Below, piece after piece: positions 42,347-52,436 of a DNA stretch of 64,000 nucleotides. The notes beneath the pieces are model-generated. The model ran no database searches, was not told the origin of the DNA, and saw only the letters and a list, made by a program, of their open reading frames with translations. Both the position numbers and the translations under genes were made by a program. Origin of the DNA: Megasphaera vaginalis (ex Bordigoni et al. 2020) (GTDB lineage: Bacteria > Bacillota > Negativicutes > Veillonellales > Megasphaeraceae); the NCBI RefSeq assembly GCF_900240295.1, contig NZ_OEQB01000006.1:1-64000 (forward strand), in the 5' to 3' direction. Within the stretch, counting starts at the first letter, position 1, and the number at the start of each line of letters is the position of its first letter.

Positions 42347-42694
42347 TGGTGGAGATGAGGAGAGTCGAACTCCTGTCCGTACATGCCGCCCCACGAATTT
42401 CTCCGAGCGCAGACCTTGTTTGGTATGTCTGACAGCGGTCGTACAAGGACAAACTGGACTGTCATAGCCTGTGAATTTCCCGAATCGGCAGCCAGGCGAT
42501 GCCGATTGGTATCCCGCTAAGTGACGTCAGCTAACTGCCCGCAGGATCAGCGGCTAGTGACGTAGTTGCCCTTAGGCAGCTAATGCAAAGTTTTCTTTTG
42601 CGTTTAATTTAAACGGTTCACCGATTTTCGGGCAGATGAAACCCCGGCTCGCTATTCGTGATACAACCATATACGTCGAAACCTTTACATCCCC
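42347..42694 (-). ncRNA. ssrA: tmRNA
   Basis: The 348-base minus-strand RNA begins GGGGATGTAAAGGTTTCGAC and ends GGAGTTCGACTCTCCTCATCTCCACCA-like, so the tRNA-Ala-type acceptor stem GGGGATG / CATCTCC and encoded CCA are present. The tag reading frame (42604-42572) encodes NAKENFALAA followed by TAA. tmRNA rescues stalled ribosomes and tags the incomplete protein for proteolysis. A perfect palindrome (42322-42338) lies just after the 3' end and may assist processing. Confidence 0.96.
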
Positions 42695-43852: not shown

Positions 43853-44000
43853 GATTTGCTCCTTTTTGGTTAGTTATTGTTAAGTCTAGCATGAAACGAT
43901 ACGGCCGTAAAGAAAGTCGTCGCTAACTCCATATGGATTTACAGGGGCCCTTTGGCGTATAATGAAAAGCAGAAGGTTATGCGGAGAGAGGGAACAACAT

Positions 44001-44990
44001 ATGAAACGAATAGTCGATGATGCGAGGTTGATCTTTAAGTGCTGCACCCTGTATTATGAAGATCGCCTGGGGCAGCAGGAAATTTGTCGCTTACTGGGCG
44101 TCTCCCGGCCTACGGTATCGCGGATGCTGAAGCTTGGCCGAGAGCGGGGAATCGTCAAGATCGAAGTTATCAACCCCGCTGCTGTGGAATACGGTGATCT
44201 TGAGCGACAGTTGGAGAAAACATTCTGCCTGCAAGAAGCCATTGTCGTCGGCAACAGCCGTCTGGAAGCGGCCGGCGATCATATCAGCCGCGCCGTAGGA
44301 AGCGCTGTTCTCACCTATTTGAATCGCATTTTGGAAGACGGGCAGTACATCGGTGTGACGATGGGGAGGTCGCTGCAGAATGTCGTAACGTCGCCGTATA
44401 ACGGCGGCAATCCCATTCATTGTACCTTTGTGCCGATCATCGGCGGCGTCGGCGAAAACCAGCTGGAAATGCATTCCAATTATCTGGTCACTAAATTCGC
44501 CGAATTGTACGGTGCTTCGTGTTTACAGTTTTTTTCGCCGGCCCTCTTTTCCGACAAAACGGTTCTGGAAGGATTTAAACGGGAACAATCGATACGCAGC
44601 ATCTTTGCCGTTTTTGATCGTCTGGATGTTGTCCTCGTCGGGATCGGTGTGCCGAGCAGCACCTATTCCACCGTCTTTTACATGGACTATGTCGCGCAGG
44701 ATATGTTGGAAGCGTTTTCGGCGCAAGGTGCCGTCGGTGATATTTGCTTGCAGTACTATGACGCTGTCGGCGGCACGGCGGCTTTTCGGCCGTATAATGA
44801 ACGGGTGGCGGGAATGGAACTGGCGGCGTTGAAAAAAGTGCCGCGCCGCATCGGGATCGTGGCCGGCACGCAGAAAGCCGGCGCCGTTCTCGGGGCTGTT
44901 CGCGGCGGGTATGTTAACACGTTGATTACCGACGCGGCTTGCGCTGAAGCGATTTTACAGGCGGCGGCGAACTGTCGTCGCGAAGCATGA
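44001..44990 (+). CDS. SorC/DeoR-type sugar-binding transcriptional regulator
   Basis: A 329-residue regulator with an N-terminal helix-turn-helix (residues ~20-55; GQQEICRLLGVSRPTVSRML) and a C-terminal sugar-phosphate-binding domain of the SorC family (VGVTMGRSLQ-like ITMGRSLQNVV, FVPIIGGVGENQLEMHSN). SorC proteins respond to phosphorylated sugars or polyols. It is the first gene of the polyol PTS cluster and overlaps nothing, with ATG 44001 chosen over an upstream start. The PTS IIA gene begins 17 bases after it, so it probably autoregulates the set. Confidence 0.9.
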   Translation: MKRIVDDARLIFKCCTLYYEDRLGQQEICRLLGVSRPTVSRMLKLGRERGIVKIEVINPAAVEYGDLERQLEKTFCLQEAIVVGNSRLEAAGDHISRAVGSAVLTYLNRILEDGQYIGVTMGRSLQNVVTSPYNGGNPIHCTFVPIIGGVGENQLEMHSNYLVTKFAELYGASCLQFFSPALFSDKTVLEGFKREQSIRSIFAVFDRLDVVLVGIGVPSSTYSTVFYMDYVAQDMLEAFSAQGAVGDICLQYYDAVGGTAAFRPYNERVAGMELAALKKVPRRIGIVAGTQKAGAVLGAVRGGYVNTLITDAACAEAILQAAANCRREA

Positions 44991-45007
44991 CAAGAAAGGA
45001 TTTTTAT

Positions 45008-45379
45008 ATGAAATATTATACTGAAATCACGACTATCGGCACGGAAGCCTGGGATCTCTTCACCGATCAGGACACGCGTTCGCTGATTCTTTTCGGCGCT
45101 TCGGCTCCGACTGAATTGGCGGAGATCTCCGTTTTGCACCGGCCGGCCGGACTTTTCGCTCCCATTGCTGTCGGCGATACGGCCGTTATCGGTGATAAAG
45201 CCTTCTCCGTTACGGCCGTCGGCAGTGAGGCCATGCATACGCTGCAGGAGTTGGGGCATTGTACGCTCTGCTTTAAAGGCGGCAAGGTGCCGGAGCGGCC
45301 GGGCTGTATTATGTTGGAAGGCGATGAACGATTGCTCCGAGCCGATTTGGCGGCGGGAAAAACGATCGAATTTTATTGA
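45008..45379 (+). CDS. PTS glucitol/sorbitol-type IIA component
   Basis: A 123-residue IIA of the Gut family (SrlB type). Family sequence is visible in ILFGASAPTELAEISVLH, whose His is the likely phosphorylation site, and in VGSEAMHTLQELGHCTLCF. It takes phosphate from HPr and passes it to IIB. The partner IIC and IIB genes lie 5.5 kb downstream at 50921-52436, with metabolic genes in between. The ribosome-binding site is AGAAAGGA. Confidence 0.9.
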   Translation: MKYYTEITTIGTEAWDLFTDQDTRSLILFGASAPTELAEISVLHRPAGLFAPIAVGDTAVIGDKAFSVTAVGSEAMHTLQELGHCTLCFKGGKVPERPGCIMLEGDERLLRADLAAGKTIEFY

Positions 45380-45442
45380 CCTGTCGCCGCTTGGCGATTT
45401 ACGGAGAAGATTTGCAGAATCGGGAAGGAGAACGTATTTATT

Positions 45443-46771
45443 GTGCTGAATATGGATATAAAACTGCTGCGCCGGGAAGAGAGCGGTCAAATTATCAGGA
45501 CCGGCATTGTCGGCGCCGGTCAGATGGGGCGCGGCATGGTTTCGCAGATGACCTTGATGAAAGGGATCAGACCGTCGCTGGTCGCCGATCACAGCTTGGA
45601 GAAAATCATCGGCGCCTTTCATCTTGCCGGCATTGATGACGGCGATATTGCCGTTGCCGGCACCGTAGCGGAAGCCAACCGCTACTTGGAACAAGGTCGT
45701 TATGTTGCCGTTGAAGACAGCGAAATTGTTTCTCAAGCTGACGGCATCGACTGCGTCGTCGATGTTACCGGTGTACCTGAAGCGGGTGTAAAGATCGCCG
45801 TTGATTCCATGAACAACGGCAAACATGTCGTTATGATGGATGTTGAAACGGACGTTGTTGTCGGCCCGTATTTGAAACGCCTCGGTGATTGCAACGGTGT
45901 TATTTACACCGGGTCCGCCGGCGATGAGCCGGGAGCGGTCATGGAATTATACAGTTTTGCCCGCGCGATGGGGATGGAAGTCAAGGTCATAGGCAAGGGC
46001 AAAAACAATGTGATTGATTATGAATGCAATCCCGACACGGTTCGTGCGGAGGCGACGCAGCGCAAAATGAGTCCCCGTATGCTCTGTTCTTTCAAGGACG
46101 GGACGAAGACGATGGTGGAAATGACGGCCATGTCCAATGCGACAGGGCTGGTGCCCGATGTTATCGGCGGTCACGGACCGCAGGCGTCGGCTGCGAATTG
46201 CTGCGCCGATTTGAATCGGCTCTTCAGGCTGAAAAAAGACGGCGGTATTTTAAACCGCCACGGTGTCGTCGAATATGTCAACGGTATCGCGCCGGGCGTT
46301 TTTGTAACGGTGTCAACGGCAAATCAAGAGATCGCCTTTGAACTGGATTATTTGAAAGTAGGTCCCGGTCCGCTCTGGACCTTTTATCGGCCGTATCATC
46401 TCTGCAATTTGGAAACGCCCCTGACCGTGGCTAAGGCGGTTATTGACGGCGAAGCGACACTCGTTCCGATGGACGGGCCCGTCAGTGAAGTCGTTACTGT
46501 GGCCAAGAAAGATCTGCGTGTCGGCGAACATCTTGACGGCATCGGCGGCTGGACAACGTACGGGTCGATCGCGACGGCGGCGGAAACGTACCGCAGCGGC
46601 TATGTCCTTTACGGCCTGGTCAACAAGAACGCAGTCGTTACGCGACCGGTCAAAAAGGGGACGCTGCTGACCATGGATATGGTTCGGCTTGACAGGACAA
46701 CGCAGCTTTATCAAACGCGCCTGGCTCAAGATCGTTTTTACGGCAAGGGGACGCTTTTACGGCAGGAGTAA
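45443..46771 (+). CDS. SAF-domain homoserine-dehydrogenase-like oxidoreductase (DRL-type)
   Basis: A 442-residue NAD(P)-dependent enzyme. The Rossmann motif is G24-A-G-Q-M-G29; a central domain (TGSAGDEPGAVMELYSFARAMG..GKGKNNVIDYECNP) follows, then a C-terminal SAF domain (about residues 345-430). To my knowledge this architecture (COG4091) includes the Brucella DXP-reductoisomerase-like enzyme DRL and D-apionate oxidoisomerase, which couple redox to carbon-skeleton rearrangement. Between a polyol PTS IIA and a split transketolase, it probably oxidises the imported polyol phosphate. The start is GTG 45443 after AAGGAG; ATG 45452 is an alternative. Confidence 0.8.
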   Translation: MLNMDIKLLRREESGQIIRTGIVGAGQMGRGMVSQMTLMKGIRPSLVADHSLEKIIGAFHLAGIDDGDIAVAGTVAEANRYLEQGRYVAVEDSEIVSQADGIDCVVDVTGVPEAGVKIAVDSMNNGKHVVMMDVETDVVVGPYLKRLGDCNGVIYTGSAGDEPGAVMELYSFARAMGMEVKVIGKGKNNVIDYECNPDTVRAEATQRKMSPRMLCSFKDGTKTMVEMTAMSNATGLVPDVIGGHGPQASAANCCADLNRLFRLKKDGGILNRHGVVEYVNGIAPGVFVTVSTANQEIAFELDYLKVGPGPLWTFYRPYHLCNLETPLTVAKAVIDGEATLVPMDGPVSEVVTVAKKDLRVGEHLDGIGGWTTYGSIATAAETYRSGYVLYGLVNKNAVVTRPVKKGTLLTMDMVRLDRTTQLYQTRLAQDRFYGKGTLLRQE

Positions 46772-46882
46772 GGTAGGATGGTAGAAGCGCTTTACTCGTT
46801 GCCGAATTTGTATTATCCTGTAGATGGACTGCTATACAGAGGCAAGGTATAGCCATTTTACATAAAAGAGGGAGAGACTACA

Positions 46883-47701
46883 ATGATCAATGAACAACTG
46901 GCGCAGCATGCCGCACACGTACGCACAAACGTTGTCAAGATGCTGACCGAAGCAAAATCAGGGCATCCCGGCGGATCCCTTTCCATCGTCGATATACTGC
47001 AAGTATTATATTTTGAAACGATGCATATCGATCCGAAAAATCCGAAAATGGCTGATCGCGATCGTTTTGTCCTTTCCAAAGGGCATAGCGCTCCCGGTCT
47101 CTATGCGACTTTGGTTGAACGAGGCTTTTTCCCGGAAGACGAATTATGGAAGCTCCGCAAGTGTAACGCCATGCTTCAAGGGCACCCCGATATGAAGCAT
47201 ACGCCCGGCGTCGATATGTCGACAGGTTCTCTCGGCCAAGGGTTGTCCGCGGCCAACGGCATGGCACTGGCTGCGAAATTGGATAAAGCGGACTGGCGCG
47301 TTTATGCTATCTGCGGTGACGGTGAGATCCAGGAAGGGCAGATCTGGGAAGCGGCCATGTCGTCGGCTCATTATCAGCTGGATAACCTTACCGTTTTCAT
47401 TGACCACAACAAGCTGCAGATCGACGGCGCTAATGAAGACGTCATGTCGGTCATGCCGATAGCTGAAAAATTCCGCGCCTTCGGTTGGCATGTGCTGGAA
47501 ATTTCCGGTCATGATTTTGACGCTATTCGTAGCGCTCTCGCCTTGGCAAAAAATACGAAAGGTCGCCCGACAGCCATTGTTGCCGAAACGGTGAAGGGCA
47601 AAGGCGTGTCGTTCATGGAAAATGAAGTAGGCTGGCACGGTAAAGCTCCGAACGGGGAACAATGTGCGCAGGCGGTTAAGGAATTGGGAGGCGAAGCATA
47701 A
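46883..47701 (+). CDS. Transketolase, N-terminal subunit
   Basis: A 272-residue N-terminal half of transketolase, binding thiamine diphosphate ([14 protein letters not shown] and FIDHNKLQ form the GDG..N motif; [14 protein letters not shown] near the start). Split transketolases are common in Firmicutes and archaea. The stop overlaps the ATG of the C-terminal subunit, ensuring equal synthesis. An inverted repeat GCTATAC/GTATAGC lies 30-52 bases upstream. Confidence 0.94.
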
Positions 47702-48621
47702 TGGGGACAGCTACACGTGCGGCATATGGCAAGATGCTGAAAACGGAACTCTATAAAAATCCGGACGTTGTCGTCCTGGATGCCGATCTCGGCAATGCAA
47801 CGAGATCGATCAGCTTTAAGGAAGTCGCGCCGGAACGGTATTTCGATATGGGAATTTCCGAACAGGATATGATGGGGACGGCTGCCGGACTGGCCGCTGC
47901 AGGCAAGATTCCGGTGGCCAGCACGTTTGCCATCTTCGCGGCAGGGCGTGCATTTGAGCAGATTCGCAATTCCATCTGCTATCCGAAGCTCAACGTCAAG
48001 ATCTGCGCTACCCATGCGGGACTTACTGTCGGCGAAGACGGCGGGACGCATCAGGCGGTGGAAGATATTTCTCTGATGCGCAGCTTGCCGAATATGACTG
48101 TCATCAATCCTGCCGATGCCAAAGAAGCGGAAGAAGCCGTTAAAGCGATTGTCGCGTATGACGGCCCTGTTTACGTCCGTCTCGGCAGAGCGGAAGTGGA
48201 AGATATTCATGGCGCCGACTATACCTTCCGCTGGGGTAAAGGGGAGATCCTGCGTGACGGTGACGACGCCGTCGTTTTCGCTACGGGCATCATGGTCGGT
48301 AAGGCTTTAGCGGCGGCAGATGCATTGGCTGCCGAAGGAATGCAGATTCGTGTCGTCAATATTCATACGATCAAGCCGATCGACGCCGAATTAGTTATCG
48401 CCTCGGCGCGGAAAACGGGGAAAGTGGTTACTGCTGAAGAACACAGCGTTATCGGCGGCCTCGGTTCTGCCGTCGCCGAAGTACTGGCCAGATACGCGCC
48501 GACAAAACAGGCTTTCGTGGGTATTCAAGATACGTTCGGTGAATCCGGTTCGCCGAAGGACTTGTTGGAAAAATACAGTCTTACGGCCGATGAGATCGTC
48601 AAAGCCATAAAAAGTTTATAA
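47701..48621 (+). CDS. Transketolase, C-terminal subunit
   Basis: A 306-residue C-terminal half: the pyrimidine-binding domain with the catalytic Glu (DMGISEQDMMGTAAGLA) and the C-terminal regulatory domain (VVTAEEHSVIGGLGSAVAEVL). With the preceding subunit it moves two-carbon ketol units between ketose and aldose phosphates. In this cluster xylulose 5-phosphate is the most likely donor. It ends at a 14-bp hairpin. Confidence 0.94.
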   Translation: MGTATRAAYGKMLKTELYKNPDVVVLDADLGNATRSISFKEVAPERYFDMGISEQDMMGTAAGLAAAGKIPVASTFAIFAAGRAFEQIRNSICYPKLNVKICATHAGLTVGEDGGTHQAVEDISLMRSLPNMTVINPADAKEAEEAVKAIVAYDGPVYVRLGRAEVEDIHGADYTFRWGKGEILRDGDDAVVFATGIMVGKALAAADALAAEGMQIRVVNIHTIKPIDAELVIASARKTGKVVTAEEHSVIGGLGSAVAEVLARYAPTKQAFVGIQDTFGESGSPKDLLEKYSLTADEIVKAIKSL

Positions 48622-48640
48622 TTGTCCGGGAAAATTGGGG

Positions 48641-48672
48641 AAGACCTCTGCCGCTTTGCGGCAGAGGTCTTT
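48641..48672 (+). terminator. Terminator after the split transketolase
   Basis: A perfect 14-bp stem (48641-48654 with 48658-48671) has a TTT loop and a short T tail. Confidence 0.75.
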
Positions 48673-48698
48673 GGTGTCCAGTGGAAGTAAGGTATACT
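48671..48698 (+). promoter_or_regulatory. Possible promoter of the phosphohexomutase gene
   Basis: TTGGTG (48671-48676) and TATACT (48693-48698) are 16 bases apart, directly after the terminator. Confidence 0.4.
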
Positions 48699-48732
48699 AA
48701 AAGCAACTTGAACCGGTGTTAGGAGGCGGAAA

Positions 48733-50244
48733 ATGGAAAAAAAAGTTGATCTGATGAGTTTACAGAACGGTAGTGATGTGCGCGGCATTGCCGTCGCCGG
48801 CGTTACCGGCGAAGACGTAAATTTGACGGCTGATGCAGTCAACCGGATAGCCGCCGGTTTTGCAGCTTTTTTGGCAGCAAAAACGGGTAAAGCCGGCAGT
48901 GCGTTAAAGATCGCCGTCGGTCATGACTCGCGCGTTTCGGCGGCAACGATGAAACACGGCGTTTTGAGCGGGCTGGCGGCACAGGGTGTACAGCCTTTTG
49001 ATTGCGGCTTGGCGTCGACGCCGGCCATGTTCATGTCCATCGTGTTTGCTGAGACGGCAATGGATGGTGCCGTTATGATTACGGCAAGTCATTTGCCCTT
49101 TAACCGTAACGGGCTGAAATTTTTTACCGCTGACGGCGGCCTGGAAAAAGACGAGATTACAGAAGTTCTGCGCCGGGCTTCGGACTTGTCGGCAGGCGTT
49201 GCAGATACGTCGTCTGTGCCGCAGTTGGCGATTCTCGATCTATATGCCGCGCACCTGCGCCGGCTGATCAGCGGCGCACTTGGTCTCGATGAAGCGGCGG
49301 AACCGCTTGCCGGCATGCACGTCGTTGTCGATGCTGGTAATGGCGCCGGCGGCTTTTTTGCGACAGCTGTTTTGGCTCCTCTCGGCGCCGATATTGCCGG
49401 CAGTCAGTTTCTTGATCCGGACGGAACTTTTCCCAATCATGTTCCCAATCCTGAAAATAAGGAGGCCATGGCATCCGTCAGTCGTGCCGTTCGTGAGGCG
49501 CAAGGCGATTTGGGCCTTATTTTTGATACGGACGTCGACCGCATGAGCGCTGTCCTGTCGGACGGCAGAGAAATAAACCGCAATGCGTTGATTGCCATGA
49601 TGGCGGCCATTTTAGCGCCTCTTTATCCGGGCAGTACGATCGTTACCGATTCCGTTACGTCCGATGAGTTGACTGTGTTCCTGGAAACTCATTTGGGGTT
49701 GAAGCACCATCGGTATATGCGCGGTTATAAGAATGTGATCAATGAATGCCGGCGGTTGAACGGGCAGGGGATCGTCTCGCCGCTGGCGATTGAAACTTCT
49801 GGCCATGGCGCATTGCGTGAAAACTATTATCTCGACGACGGCGCTTATTTGGCCGTCAAACTCTTGGTGGCGGCGACGCAGGCCAAACGTGCCGGGAGTT
49901 CTCTGGATGAAATCATTGCGGCGCTAAAGGAGCCGGCAGAGTCTGCCGAATACAGATTACGGATTACGACAAGGGAAGGGGTGCAGGCTTACGGACAGGA
50001 AGTCTTGCGGATTTTTGCCGCCAGAGCGACAGCTGCAGGTATTACGTTGGCCGAACCGTCTTATGAAGGCGTGCGCCTCGTTTTTCCCAAGGGCTGGGCG
50101 TTGCTGCGCATGTCTCTGCACGATCCCAATATGCCTTTGAATGTGGAAAGTAAAGAACGCGGCGACTGTGCATTAATACGCCGCCAGCTGAGGCCTCTGC
50201 TCACCGGTTTGGCCGGTCTGGATACGGAGGTCTTGCAGGAATAA
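48733..50244 (+). CDS. Phosphohexomutase (phosphomannomutase/phosphoglucomutase family)
   Basis: A 503-residue alpha-D-phosphohexomutase. The phosphoserine loop is TASHLPFNRNG, the Mg loop is DTDVDRM, the sugar-specificity loop is ETSGHGALRENY and the phosphate-binding loop is ESKERGD. These enzymes interconvert 1- and 6-phosphates of glucose or mannose. TASHLP departs slightly from the usual TASHNP. It has its own promoter and terminator-flanked position between the transketolase and gutM, so its link to polyol use is uncertain; it could serve cell-surface sugar synthesis. Confidence 0.9.
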   Translation: MEKKVDLMSLQNGSDVRGIAVAGVTGEDVNLTADAVNRIAAGFAAFLAAKTGKAGSALKIAVGHDSRVSAATMKHGVLSGLAAQGVQPFDCGLASTPAMFMSIVFAETAMDGAVMITASHLPFNRNGLKFFTADGGLEKDEITEVLRRASDLSAGVADTSSVPQLAILDLYAAHLRRLISGALGLDEAAEPLAGMHVVVDAGNGAGGFFATAVLAPLGADIAGSQFLDPDGTFPNHVPNPENKEAMASVSRAVREAQGDLGLIFDTDVDRMSAVLSDGREINRNALIAMMAAILAPLYPGSTIVTDSVTSDELTVFLETHLGLKHHRYMRGYKNVINECRRLNGQGIVSPLAIETSGHGALRENYYLDDGAYLAVKLLVAATQAKRAGSSLDEIIAALKEPAESAEYRLRITTREGVQAYGQEVLRIFAARATAAGITLAEPSYEGVRLVFPKGWALLRMSLHDPNMPLNVESKERGDCALIRRQLRPLLTGLAGLDTEVLQE

Positions 50245-50323
50245 CGATTAATTCCATAGAGTTATTAATCATCGATTGTTGATGCTAAAATATCAATATT
50301 TACGTTTGTTCTATATAAAAATA

Positions 50324-50352
50324 TTGAAAAAATAATGATATCGTGGTACGCT
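50324..50352 (+). promoter_or_regulatory. Possible promoter of the gutM-IIC-IIB operon
   Basis: TTGAAA (50324-50329) and TACGCT (50347-50352) are 17 bases apart in an AT-rich region; the -10 is poor, as expected for an activator-dependent promoter. Confidence 0.35.
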
Positions 50353-50353
50353 A

Positions 50354-50481
50354 TGTCAGGGTAATGACAGGAATATGGATGCAGACTGTTTCCATATGTT
50401 ATCGTCTCTGACGTTAATTGAACCTGAAAATACATTACTTGTATTTTCAGGTTTTATTTTTTTGCTGGAAAGGACGGTATC
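50354..50481 (+). promoter_or_regulatory. Structured leader with attenuator before gutM
   Basis: The leader contains an outer pairing GTCAG/CTGAC, an inner ATATGGA/TCCATAT hairpin (about 50374-50399) and then a strong terminator ending 19 bases before the gutM ATG. No sigma promoter lies between that terminator and gutM. The arrangement implies transcription attenuation, by an RNA-binding antiterminator or a riboswitch-like element. I do not recognise a known riboswitch class. Confidence 0.5.
50421..50463 (+). terminator. Strong terminator upstream of gutM
   Basis: A perfect 13-bp stem AACCTGAAAATAC / GTATTTTCAGGTT (50421-50433 with 50441-50453) is followed by TTATTTTTTT. The gutM ribosome-binding site follows within six bases. 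Confidence 0.92.
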
Positions 50482-50871
50482 ATGTCGCTGGAATTATTTT
50501 TTATTATTCTTTTTGCCTTGATGATCATGCAGGTGATCGGAACTCATTTTCAGATAAAAGCGTATCGAAGGGCAATTCATCGCCTTCATAAAAAGGGGCA
50601 TATCGGAATTGGCGGTAAACGTTCCCGCTTCGGGCCCGGTCAAATCGTAATCATAGCCTGCGACGGCCGTGGCGCCATTACGGGCGGAGAAATGATGAGC
50701 GGTATGACCGTTTTCAGCCGTTTCCAGGAGATCCCCGATATTTCAGGCAAATCAATTTATGAAATGGAACGACGTTATTCGGCGGCAGGTCGAAGAGCGC
50801 GTCACCTTTACGCCGGACACCTGCAAGCGGTGCAGGCCTTGGTCAGTAGACTGGAGACAGGCGGACAGTAA
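50482..50871 (+). CDS. gutM: GutM-family glucitol operon activator
   Basis: A 129-residue GutM-like protein. It has an N-terminal membrane helix (LELFFIILFALMIMQVIG) and the family core KGHIGIGGKRSRFGPGQIVII and MSGMTVFSRFQEIPDISGKS. In E. coli GutM activates the glucitol (srl) operon. It precedes the IIC and IIB genes, as expected for a glucitol-type PTS. Its expression may be controlled by the attenuator directly upstream. Confidence 0.88.
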   Translation: MSLELFFIILFALMIMQVIGTHFQIKAYRRAIHRLHKKGHIGIGGKRSRFGPGQIVIIACDGRGAITGGEMMSGMTVFSRFQEIPDISGKSIYEMERRYSAAGRRARHLYAGHLQAVQALVSRLETGGQ

Positions 50872-50920
50872 GGGGCGAAGGATGATACTCATAACGAGAA
50901 GAGAGTGAAGGTGGACTACA

Positions 50921-51448
50921 ATGGAAATTATTGCTTCCTGTGCCAATGGCTTCATGGACTTATTCAAAGCCGGCGCAGTTACGTTTACCGGCTTTGTCAC
51001 GGCCATTATTCCGCTGATTATCGTTTTAATGACGGCAGTCAATTCCGTTATCAAACTGATTGGCGAAGACCGTTTTTTTTCGTTCGCCCAAAGAGCGACG
51101 CGGTACCGGATCACGAGATACACTGTCGTTCCCGTGTTGTCGATTATTTTTCTGGGCAGCCCTATGTGCTTTTCTTTCGGGCGATTTGTGGAGGAAAAAT
51201 ATAAACCGGCTTTTTATGACGCGGCAGTCAGCTTCGTTCATCCTGTGACGGGGATCTTTCCTCATGCCAACGGCAGTGAACTCTTCGTCTATATGGGGAT
51301 TGCCGCAGGGATCCAAACCTTGGGGTTCCAACTCGGTGAACTGGCTGTTCGGTATTTTTTAGTCGGTATCGTCGTCATTTTGCTGCGCGGTATCGTTACG
51401 GAGCAGATTTATGCGTATATGTGCCGTAAAACCGGCCGCAAGGTATAG
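50921..51448 (+). CDS. PTS glucitol/sorbitol-type IIC component
   Basis: A 175-residue membrane component (SrlA type), with membrane helices and the conserved FLGSPMCFSFGRFVEEKYKP and FPHANGSELFVYMGIA segments. It forms the polyol channel with the C-terminal part of the next protein. The ribosome-binding site is GAAGGTGG, and the IIB/C gene starts 10 bases after the stop. Confidence 0.92.
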   Translation: MEIIASCANGFMDLFKAGAVTFTGFVTAIIPLIIVLMTAVNSVIKLIGEDRFFSFAQRATRYRITRYTVVPVLSIIFLGSPMCFSFGRFVEEKYKPAFYDAAVSFVHPVTGIFPHANGSELFVYMGIAAGIQTLGFQLGELAVRYFLVGIVVILLRGIVTEQIYAYMCRKTGRKV

Positions 51449-51458
51449 GAGGAACGTA

Positions 51459-52436
51459 ATGTATTGTACAGCAGTTGTCAGAAACGGCGCAGGCGGTTGG
51501 GGCGGACCGCTGACCATCACGCCGACGGAACACAAGCATAAGATTGTCAGCATCACCGGCGGCGGTATTCACCCGTTGGCCGCGGAGCTGGCCGAATTGA
51601 CCGGATGTGAAGCTGTTGACGGATTTACGACAGGCGTTCCTGACGGAGAAATTTTAGCCGTCGTCATCGATTGCGGCGGCACAGCCCGCTGCGGCGTGTA
51701 CCCGAAAAAAAATATCCTTACGATCAATACGGTTCCGGTAGGAAAGATCGGGCCGTTGGCACGTTTTATTACGGCAGATCTGTATGTATCGGGCGTGACT
51801 TCAGACTGTATTTCCCGTCAGGCCGATGCGGCGCAGGCGGCGCCTATCCGTGCTCGGGAGGGGCGGGCGATAAGCGGCGAAGCGATTGGCGCCGCTCAAA
51901 CGGCGCAGAAGCGCAATATCGTTACGCGCATCGGCATTTCGATTGGCCGAATCGTCAATATCTTTTATGCCGCCGGCAGGGAAAGCATTGACATTACCAT
52001 CAAAAGCATCTTGCCGTTCATGGCTTTTGTCAGCATGATTTTGGGCATTATCAGCGCTTCCGGCATCGGCGGCATCATTGCCAATACCATCTCGCCTGTA
52101 GCCGGTACGCTGCCGGGAATGCTTGTCATTTCGTTTATCTGCGCGATTCCGTTCGTTTCGCCTATTCTCGGACCGGGTGCCGTTATCGCCCAAGTAGTCG
52201 GCACGCTTTTGGGGGCGGAGATCGGCTTGGGGCATATTCCGCCACAATATGCGCTGCCGGCGTTGTTTGCGATCAACGCGCAGGTCGGCGCCGATTTCGT
52301 GCCGGTCGGTCTCAGCTTGGGGGAGGCTGAGCCGGAAACGATCGAGCTGGGCGTGCCTGCCGTTTTGTATTCCCGCGTCATTACGGGGCCGCTGGCCGTC
52401 TTGATCGCTTATGCAGCCAGCATCGGTTTGTATTGA
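51459..52436 (+). CDS. PTS glucitol/sorbitol-type IIB (IIBC2) component
   Basis: A 325-residue SrlE-type protein. The N-terminal IIB domain (residues ~1-120) contains the phosphorylated Cys in VVIDCGGTARCGVYPKK; the C-terminal half (about 170-325) is a membrane domain (ILPFMAFVSMILGIISASGIGGI..VSPILGPGAVIAQ). A low-conservation linker joins them. Start ATG 51459 follows AGGAGG. It phosphorylates the polyol during import, so the cytoplasmic product is a polyol phosphate. Confidence 0.92.
   Translation: MYCTAVVRNGAGGWGGPLTITPTEHKHKIVSITGGGIHPLAAELAELTGCEAVDGFTTGVPDGEILAVVIDCGGTARCGVYPKKNILTINTVPVGKIGPLARFITADLYVSGVTSDCISRQADAAQAAPIRAREGRAISGEAIGAAQTAQKRNIVTRIGISIGRIVNIFYAAGRESIDITIKSILPFMAFVSMILGIISASGIGGIIANTISPVAGTLPGMLVISFICAIPFVSPILGPGAVIAQVVGTLLGAEIGLGHIPPQYALPALFAINAQVGADFVPVGLSLGEAEPETIELGVPAVLYSRVITGPLAVLIAYAASIGLY

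Follow-up and report, generated by a model that had tools for sequence, protein, structure and literature searches.

Among described systems, the dra-nupC-pdp operator of the Bacillus subtilis DeoR protein (SorC family) resembles the region ahead of gutM in the window (the whole stretch of 64,000 nucleotides of Megasphaera vaginalis DNA that was analysed) in its palindromic left half (a candidate only in the window), its right half of the TTTACATATGTTC type, a sigma-70 promoter nearby and a SorC-family regulator encoded in the vicinity (PMC11229326). The two differ in operator position (-60 to -21 for DeoR (PMC11229326), against about -79 to -47 for the predicted operator of the window) and in the leader terminator that follows the operator-promoter in the window. 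The regulator of the window has its closest solved relative in the SorC sorbitol operon regulator PDB 2w48 (residues 19-332, E 1.1e-46), although 2w48 belongs to a sorbitol operon, whereas the target operon and ligand of the window regulator are predicted only. In the gut operons of Lactobacillus and Pediococcus, gutM likewise accompanies PTS genes (gutCBA), but the excerpted account of these operons gives a PRD-type activator, GutR, as their regulator instead of a SorC-type protein, and describes no leader terminator of the kind present in the window (PMC5723342). Leader antitermination of the BglG/LicT type (Rfam RF03530) resembles the window in involving a PTS operon whose leader contains a terminator. 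Nevertheless, the window leader scores far under the covariance threshold (a weak bglG-cis-reg match of 20.3 bits against a gathering score of 80) and the genome is devoid of a CAT_RBD antiterminator protein; BglG/LicT antitermination was rejected on both counts. A search of the literature found no paper on attenuation in gutM leaders or on Megasphaera leaders.

The best explanation of the present locus is that gutM-IIC-IIB probably forms a separate unit, with a SorC-controlled promoter and a leader terminator that damps its expression. The features concerned are collected in Table 1.

Table 1. Features of the gutM locus and the evidence by which each was assigned
Feature	Position	Strand	Basis
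SorC-family transcription regulator	43962..44990	+	Pfam Sugar-bind, E 2.6e-59
Candidate left half-operator, TTGAT...ATCAA	50279..50296	+	By-eye comparison with the left palindrome ATTGAACAAAATTTCAATTACCAATTTACATATGTTCAA of B. subtilis DeoR (PMC11229326)
Operator half-site TTTACGTTTGTTC, same type as the DeoR right half TTTACATATGTTC	50299..50311	+	Ahead of gutM in 16 species
Sigma-70 promoter: TTGAAA, 17 nt, TACGCT	50324..50352	+	In 16 species, the -35, the -10 and their spacing are conserved with respect to the operator
5' part of the leader with two hairpins (50373-50397, 50398-50418)	50358..50418	+	Stepwise folding
Leader intrinsic terminator with T tract	50420..50463	+	Hairpin and T tract; terminator at the same place in Colibacter massiliensis (L021) and Anaeroglobus geminatus (L030)
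gutM	50482..50871	+	Pfam GutM, E 1.8e-26
PTS glucitol/sorbitol IIC	50921..51448	+	Pfam EII-GUT, E 7.3e-73
PTS glucitol/sorbitol IIB(C)	51459..52436	+	Pfam EIIBC-GUT N and C

Gene neighbourhood and regulator

The genes at 43962-52436 encode the SorC regulator, PTS IIA-gut, a DRL-type (DXR-like) oxidoreductase, a split transketolase, a phosphomannomutase-like (PMM) enzyme, GutM, IIC and IIB. None of the nine proteins scanned was seen to be a sorbitol-6-phosphate dehydrogenase, which makes the set look less like a plain sorbitol pathway than like one for an unusual, perhaps branched, polyol. The PMM gene, with its stop at 50244, lies upstream of the gutM ATG at 50482, and its stop codon is directly followed by an inverted repeat (GATTAAT ... 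ATTAATC, 50246-50270) without a T tract, which is possibly a further binding site. A tmRNA gene is also found in the window, on the minus strand at 42347-42694 (Rfam match at gathering score).

As in SorC/DeoR-type regulated promoters, a SorC-family regulator is encoded together with its putative target operon. A close orthologue of this regulator (48-56% identity) occurs in exactly the six genomes of the genus that bear gutM (6/6), while genus genomes without gutM hold at most distant SorC paralogues (26-30% identity). The product of the 43962 gene is the likely ligand sensor, responsive to a sugar phosphate.

The gene upstream of gutM varies among relatives. In Colibacter massiliensis, M. 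micronuciformis (L029) and Anaeroglobus geminatus, gutM-IIC-IIB stands behind a dehydrogenase-like gene, with the operator-promoter as in the window, and the SorC-IIA-transketolase genes are located elsewhere; M. massiliensis (L027) has the SorC gene immediately upstream; and in strain Marseille-P2974 (L013), the PMM-like gene leads straight into gutM, without promoter or terminator. The conserved operator-promoter behind a different upstream gene in the first three species argues for independent transcription of gutM-IIC-IIB, and the variety of upstream contexts suggests that the window presents a join of two units, in which gutM has retained its own promoter.

The conserved promoter and putative operator

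Comparison of the gutM upstream regions among related genomes revealed a conserved block of TTTAC-N5-TTC, about 12 nt, TTG(A/T)AA, 16-18 nt and TANNNT, the window copy of which covers 50299-50352. Sixteen distinct species of Negativicutes (Megasphaera, Anaeroglobus, Colibacter, Selenomonas, Centipeda, Mitsuokella and other relatives) carry the operator-promoter ahead of gutM, and the strict form of this pattern matches once in the 2.2-Mb genome, with no match for the reversed-pattern control and none in 100 shuffles of the window. The promoter (-35 at 50324-50329 and -10 at 50347-50352, with TG one base upstream of the -10) falls within the very interval that the sequence-only reading had assigned to an attenuator-type leader (50324-50481), upstream of the terminator. 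The -10 of the window (TACGCT) is weak, and the predicted transcription start should lie near 50358-50361.

The putative operator would have two halves: the right half, of DeoR-like type, is conserved in the 16 species, and the left half was recognised by eye only. The half-site of M. massiliensis is TTTACATATGTTC, which is contained in the right half-operator of B. subtilis DeoR and forms an inverted repeat in M. massiliensis. The operator arms ahead of gutM in this species (GAACATATGTAAA ... TTTACATATGTTC, L076:2563-2611) are perfectly mirrored and would serve well as a site for probing the SorC regulator. The position of the putative operator in the window fits an activator as well as a repressor. 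The sugar signal is better explained by the SorC-family regulator and the putative operator at the promoter than by the leader RNA.

The leader terminator and its occurrence among relatives

The terminator ahead of gutM, already recognised in the sequence-only reading, is a hairpin of 15 pairs (GAACCTGAAAATACA-TTACT-TGTATTTTCAGGTTT, 50420-50454; -18.7 kcal/mol) followed by TATTTTTTT, and its T tract ends at 50463, 18 bases 5' of the gutM ATG rather than the 19 given earlier. The accompanying claim that no promoter lies between the terminator and gutM was borne out, as the interval from the terminator to the ATG contains no sigma-70-like site; the best candidate -10 by eye (TATCAT, 50478-50483) is without a -35, and transcription from such a -10 would begin within gutM. 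That gutM-IIC-IIB must be read through the terminator was likewise right, the promoter being placed upstream of it. An intrinsic terminator between promoter and first gene is the arrangement of a transcription attenuator, and the proposed attenuator-type order (promoter, leader of about 100 nt, terminator, gutM) is supported by the same order and spacing in two relatives.

These relatives are Colibacter massiliensis and Anaeroglobus geminatus, which together with the window species make up the only three of the 16 species with a terminator between promoter and gutM, all within one GTDB genus; the other 13 have the gutM promoter and lack a leader terminator. Counted from the ATG, the -35 is positioned at -158 (window), -165 (Colibacter) and -160 (Anaeroglobus), and the terminator hairpin ends at about -27, -34 and -35, respectively. 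The leaders of M. micronuciformis and M. massiliensis are short, at about 55 nt, and contain no terminator.

It is rather unlikely that the terminator chiefly ends the upstream SorC-IIA-DRL-transketolase-PMM transcript and is found in the gutM leader only incidentally. Such a role would agree with the finding that there is no other terminator-like site between the PMM stop and the gutM promoter, but the terminator lies about 175 nt past PMM and downstream of the gutM promoter, and the leader terminators of Colibacter and Anaeroglobus are in the same position and follow an unrelated upstream gene. In Colibacter, a second hairpin with a T tract was seen by eye directly 3' of that upstream gene; thus, the leader terminator is not simply the terminator of the gene before it.

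A five-way alignment showed conservation reaching the -10 and little beyond, and the leaders are not alignable. In leader-to-leader alignment, only the terminators of Colibacter and Anaeroglobus appeared related (p 0.012); the match between the window and Colibacter leaders (p 0.004) is out of register and possibly due to chance. A DNA search for the leader in the family and class returned only the leader itself, along with short matches that were terminator-like or rich in A+T. A small RNA (about 105 nt) produced from the promoter-terminator pair and acting elsewhere would suit a structured stretch flanked by these two elements, but conservation outside the window genome is lacking and the proposal is exceedingly unlikely.

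Leader folding and antitermination

The stretch 50330-50481 folds at -49.3 kcal/mol, compared with -29.9 +/- 3.9 in dinucleotide shuffles (z = -5.0, 0/200). Of the upstream hairpins put forward in the sequence-only reading as competitors of the terminator, both inverted repeats are present (ATATGGA at 50373-50379 with TCCATAT at 50391-50397, and GTCAG at 50355-50359 with CTGAC at 50408-50412). Since the -10 ends at 50352, most of the GTCAG arm precedes the predicted start, and the GTCAG/CTGAC hairpin is probably not fully within the transcript. In stepwise folding from 50358, the best fold before the 3' arm of the terminator is made is a three-way junction (-19.9 kcal/mol, a stability reached by 3.4% of leader shuffles), closed by GGTAATG/CATTACT (50360-50366 with 50433-50439) and CAGG/CCTG (50368-50371 with 50423-50426); 50360-50366 and 50368-50371, which could base-pair with the 5' arm and the loop of the terminator, form a candidate antiterminator. 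The junction is replaced by the terminator once the latter is complete.

In Colibacter and Anaeroglobus, TCCGG stands 17 nt before the CCGGA of the terminator 5' arm (L021:2915-2941 and L030:2915-2941), at an equal distance to the gutM start in both species, and the two motifs are possibly a shared antiterminator. The junction and the TCCGG/CCGGA pairing are a weak hint of antitermination and do not amount to evidence for it.

Ligand-controlled antitermination, in which the junction closed by the antiterminator (50360-50371 with 50423-50439) binds a polyol phosphate or another metabolite as a new riboswitch, would draw on this folding order and on the scarcity of equally stable junctions, found in 2.5-3.4% of leader shuffles (p about 0.03). 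However, the energy of the antiterminator duplex alone is not unusual, being reached in 23% of shuffles (p 0.23 for the window, p 0.45 for Colibacter and a borderline p 0.05 for Anaeroglobus); neither the junction nor its sequence was found in any relative, and no stability comparable to that of the window junction was seen in the Colibacter or Anaeroglobus leaders. Rfam, searched at gathering and permissive thresholds, gave no leader family at gathering score, so that the leader matches no known riboswitch or cis-acting RNA; moreover, 13 of 16 relatives manage without a leader terminator, and a SorC sensor is already at hand. Such a riboswitch is very unlikely, and the earlier suggestion of a new riboswitch or antitermination element is not supported, given the unconserved leader sequence, the same-promoter relatives without a leader terminator and the want of a matching RNA family. 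It is highly improbable, too, that 50358-50454 is an orphan riboswitch, in which a three-way junction with the antiterminator as its closing stem acts as sensor for the polyol phosphate brought in or for a metabolite further down the pathway; if true, it would constitute a second, RNA-level sensor added to a SorC-controlled operon.

Leader-peptide attenuation, where translation of a short ORF (50364-50411, MTGIWMQTVSICYRL, or 50379-50411) alters leader folding, could build on an ATG that is in frame at 50379 and preceded by AGGA at a distance of about 7 nt, and on the end of the ORF just before the terminator. It is nevertheless distinctly unlikely, as the ORF has no regulatory run of one codon, the Colibacter and Anaeroglobus leaders show by eye no comparable ORF with a ribosome site, and peptide attenuation responds to amino acids or translation, not to a polyol.

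ANTAR RNA targets are paired hairpins with hexaloops bearing A at position 1 and G at position 4. The genome encodes a single ANTAR-domain protein (G000:C3:320297-320455), but hairpins with such loops are absent from all three leaders, and the protein occurs in 15 of 15 genus genomes, with gutM present or not. ANTAR antitermination was rejected, its protein being encoded and its RNA signature missing; protein-dependent antitermination, of either the BglG/LicT or the ANTAR type, is most improbable.

An ordinary promoter plus attenuator, occurring in a few species of one genus and with a terminator that may be modulated, is the most economical reading. On the basis of the sequence elements, their conservation and spacing and the co-occurrence of the regulator, transcription of gutM-IIC-IIB would start from the promoter at 50324-50352, and the SorC-family regulator encoded at 43962 would bind the DeoR-like operator at about 50279-50311 and respond to the polyol once imported and phosphorylated. 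The terminator, about 60 nt into the leader, would halt part of the transcripts, both those from the gutM promoter and those from the upstream SorC-IIA-...-PMM set, and only the remainder would read gutM-IIC-IIB. The terminator would act mainly as a damping attenuator, holding the uninduced level low. Given such a strong-looking hairpin and T tract, constitutive termination alone might nearly silence the operon, which argues for some regulated read-through; any modulation may come about through a transient duplex between 50360-50371 and the terminator 5' arm, or through effects of ribosomes or RNA polymerase, rather than through a dedicated metabolite aptamer.

Through the analysis, a family of polyol PTS operons in Negativicutes gains a promoter together with a likely operator and regulator, and leader terminators are seen to follow one conserved promoter in some species and to be missing in others.
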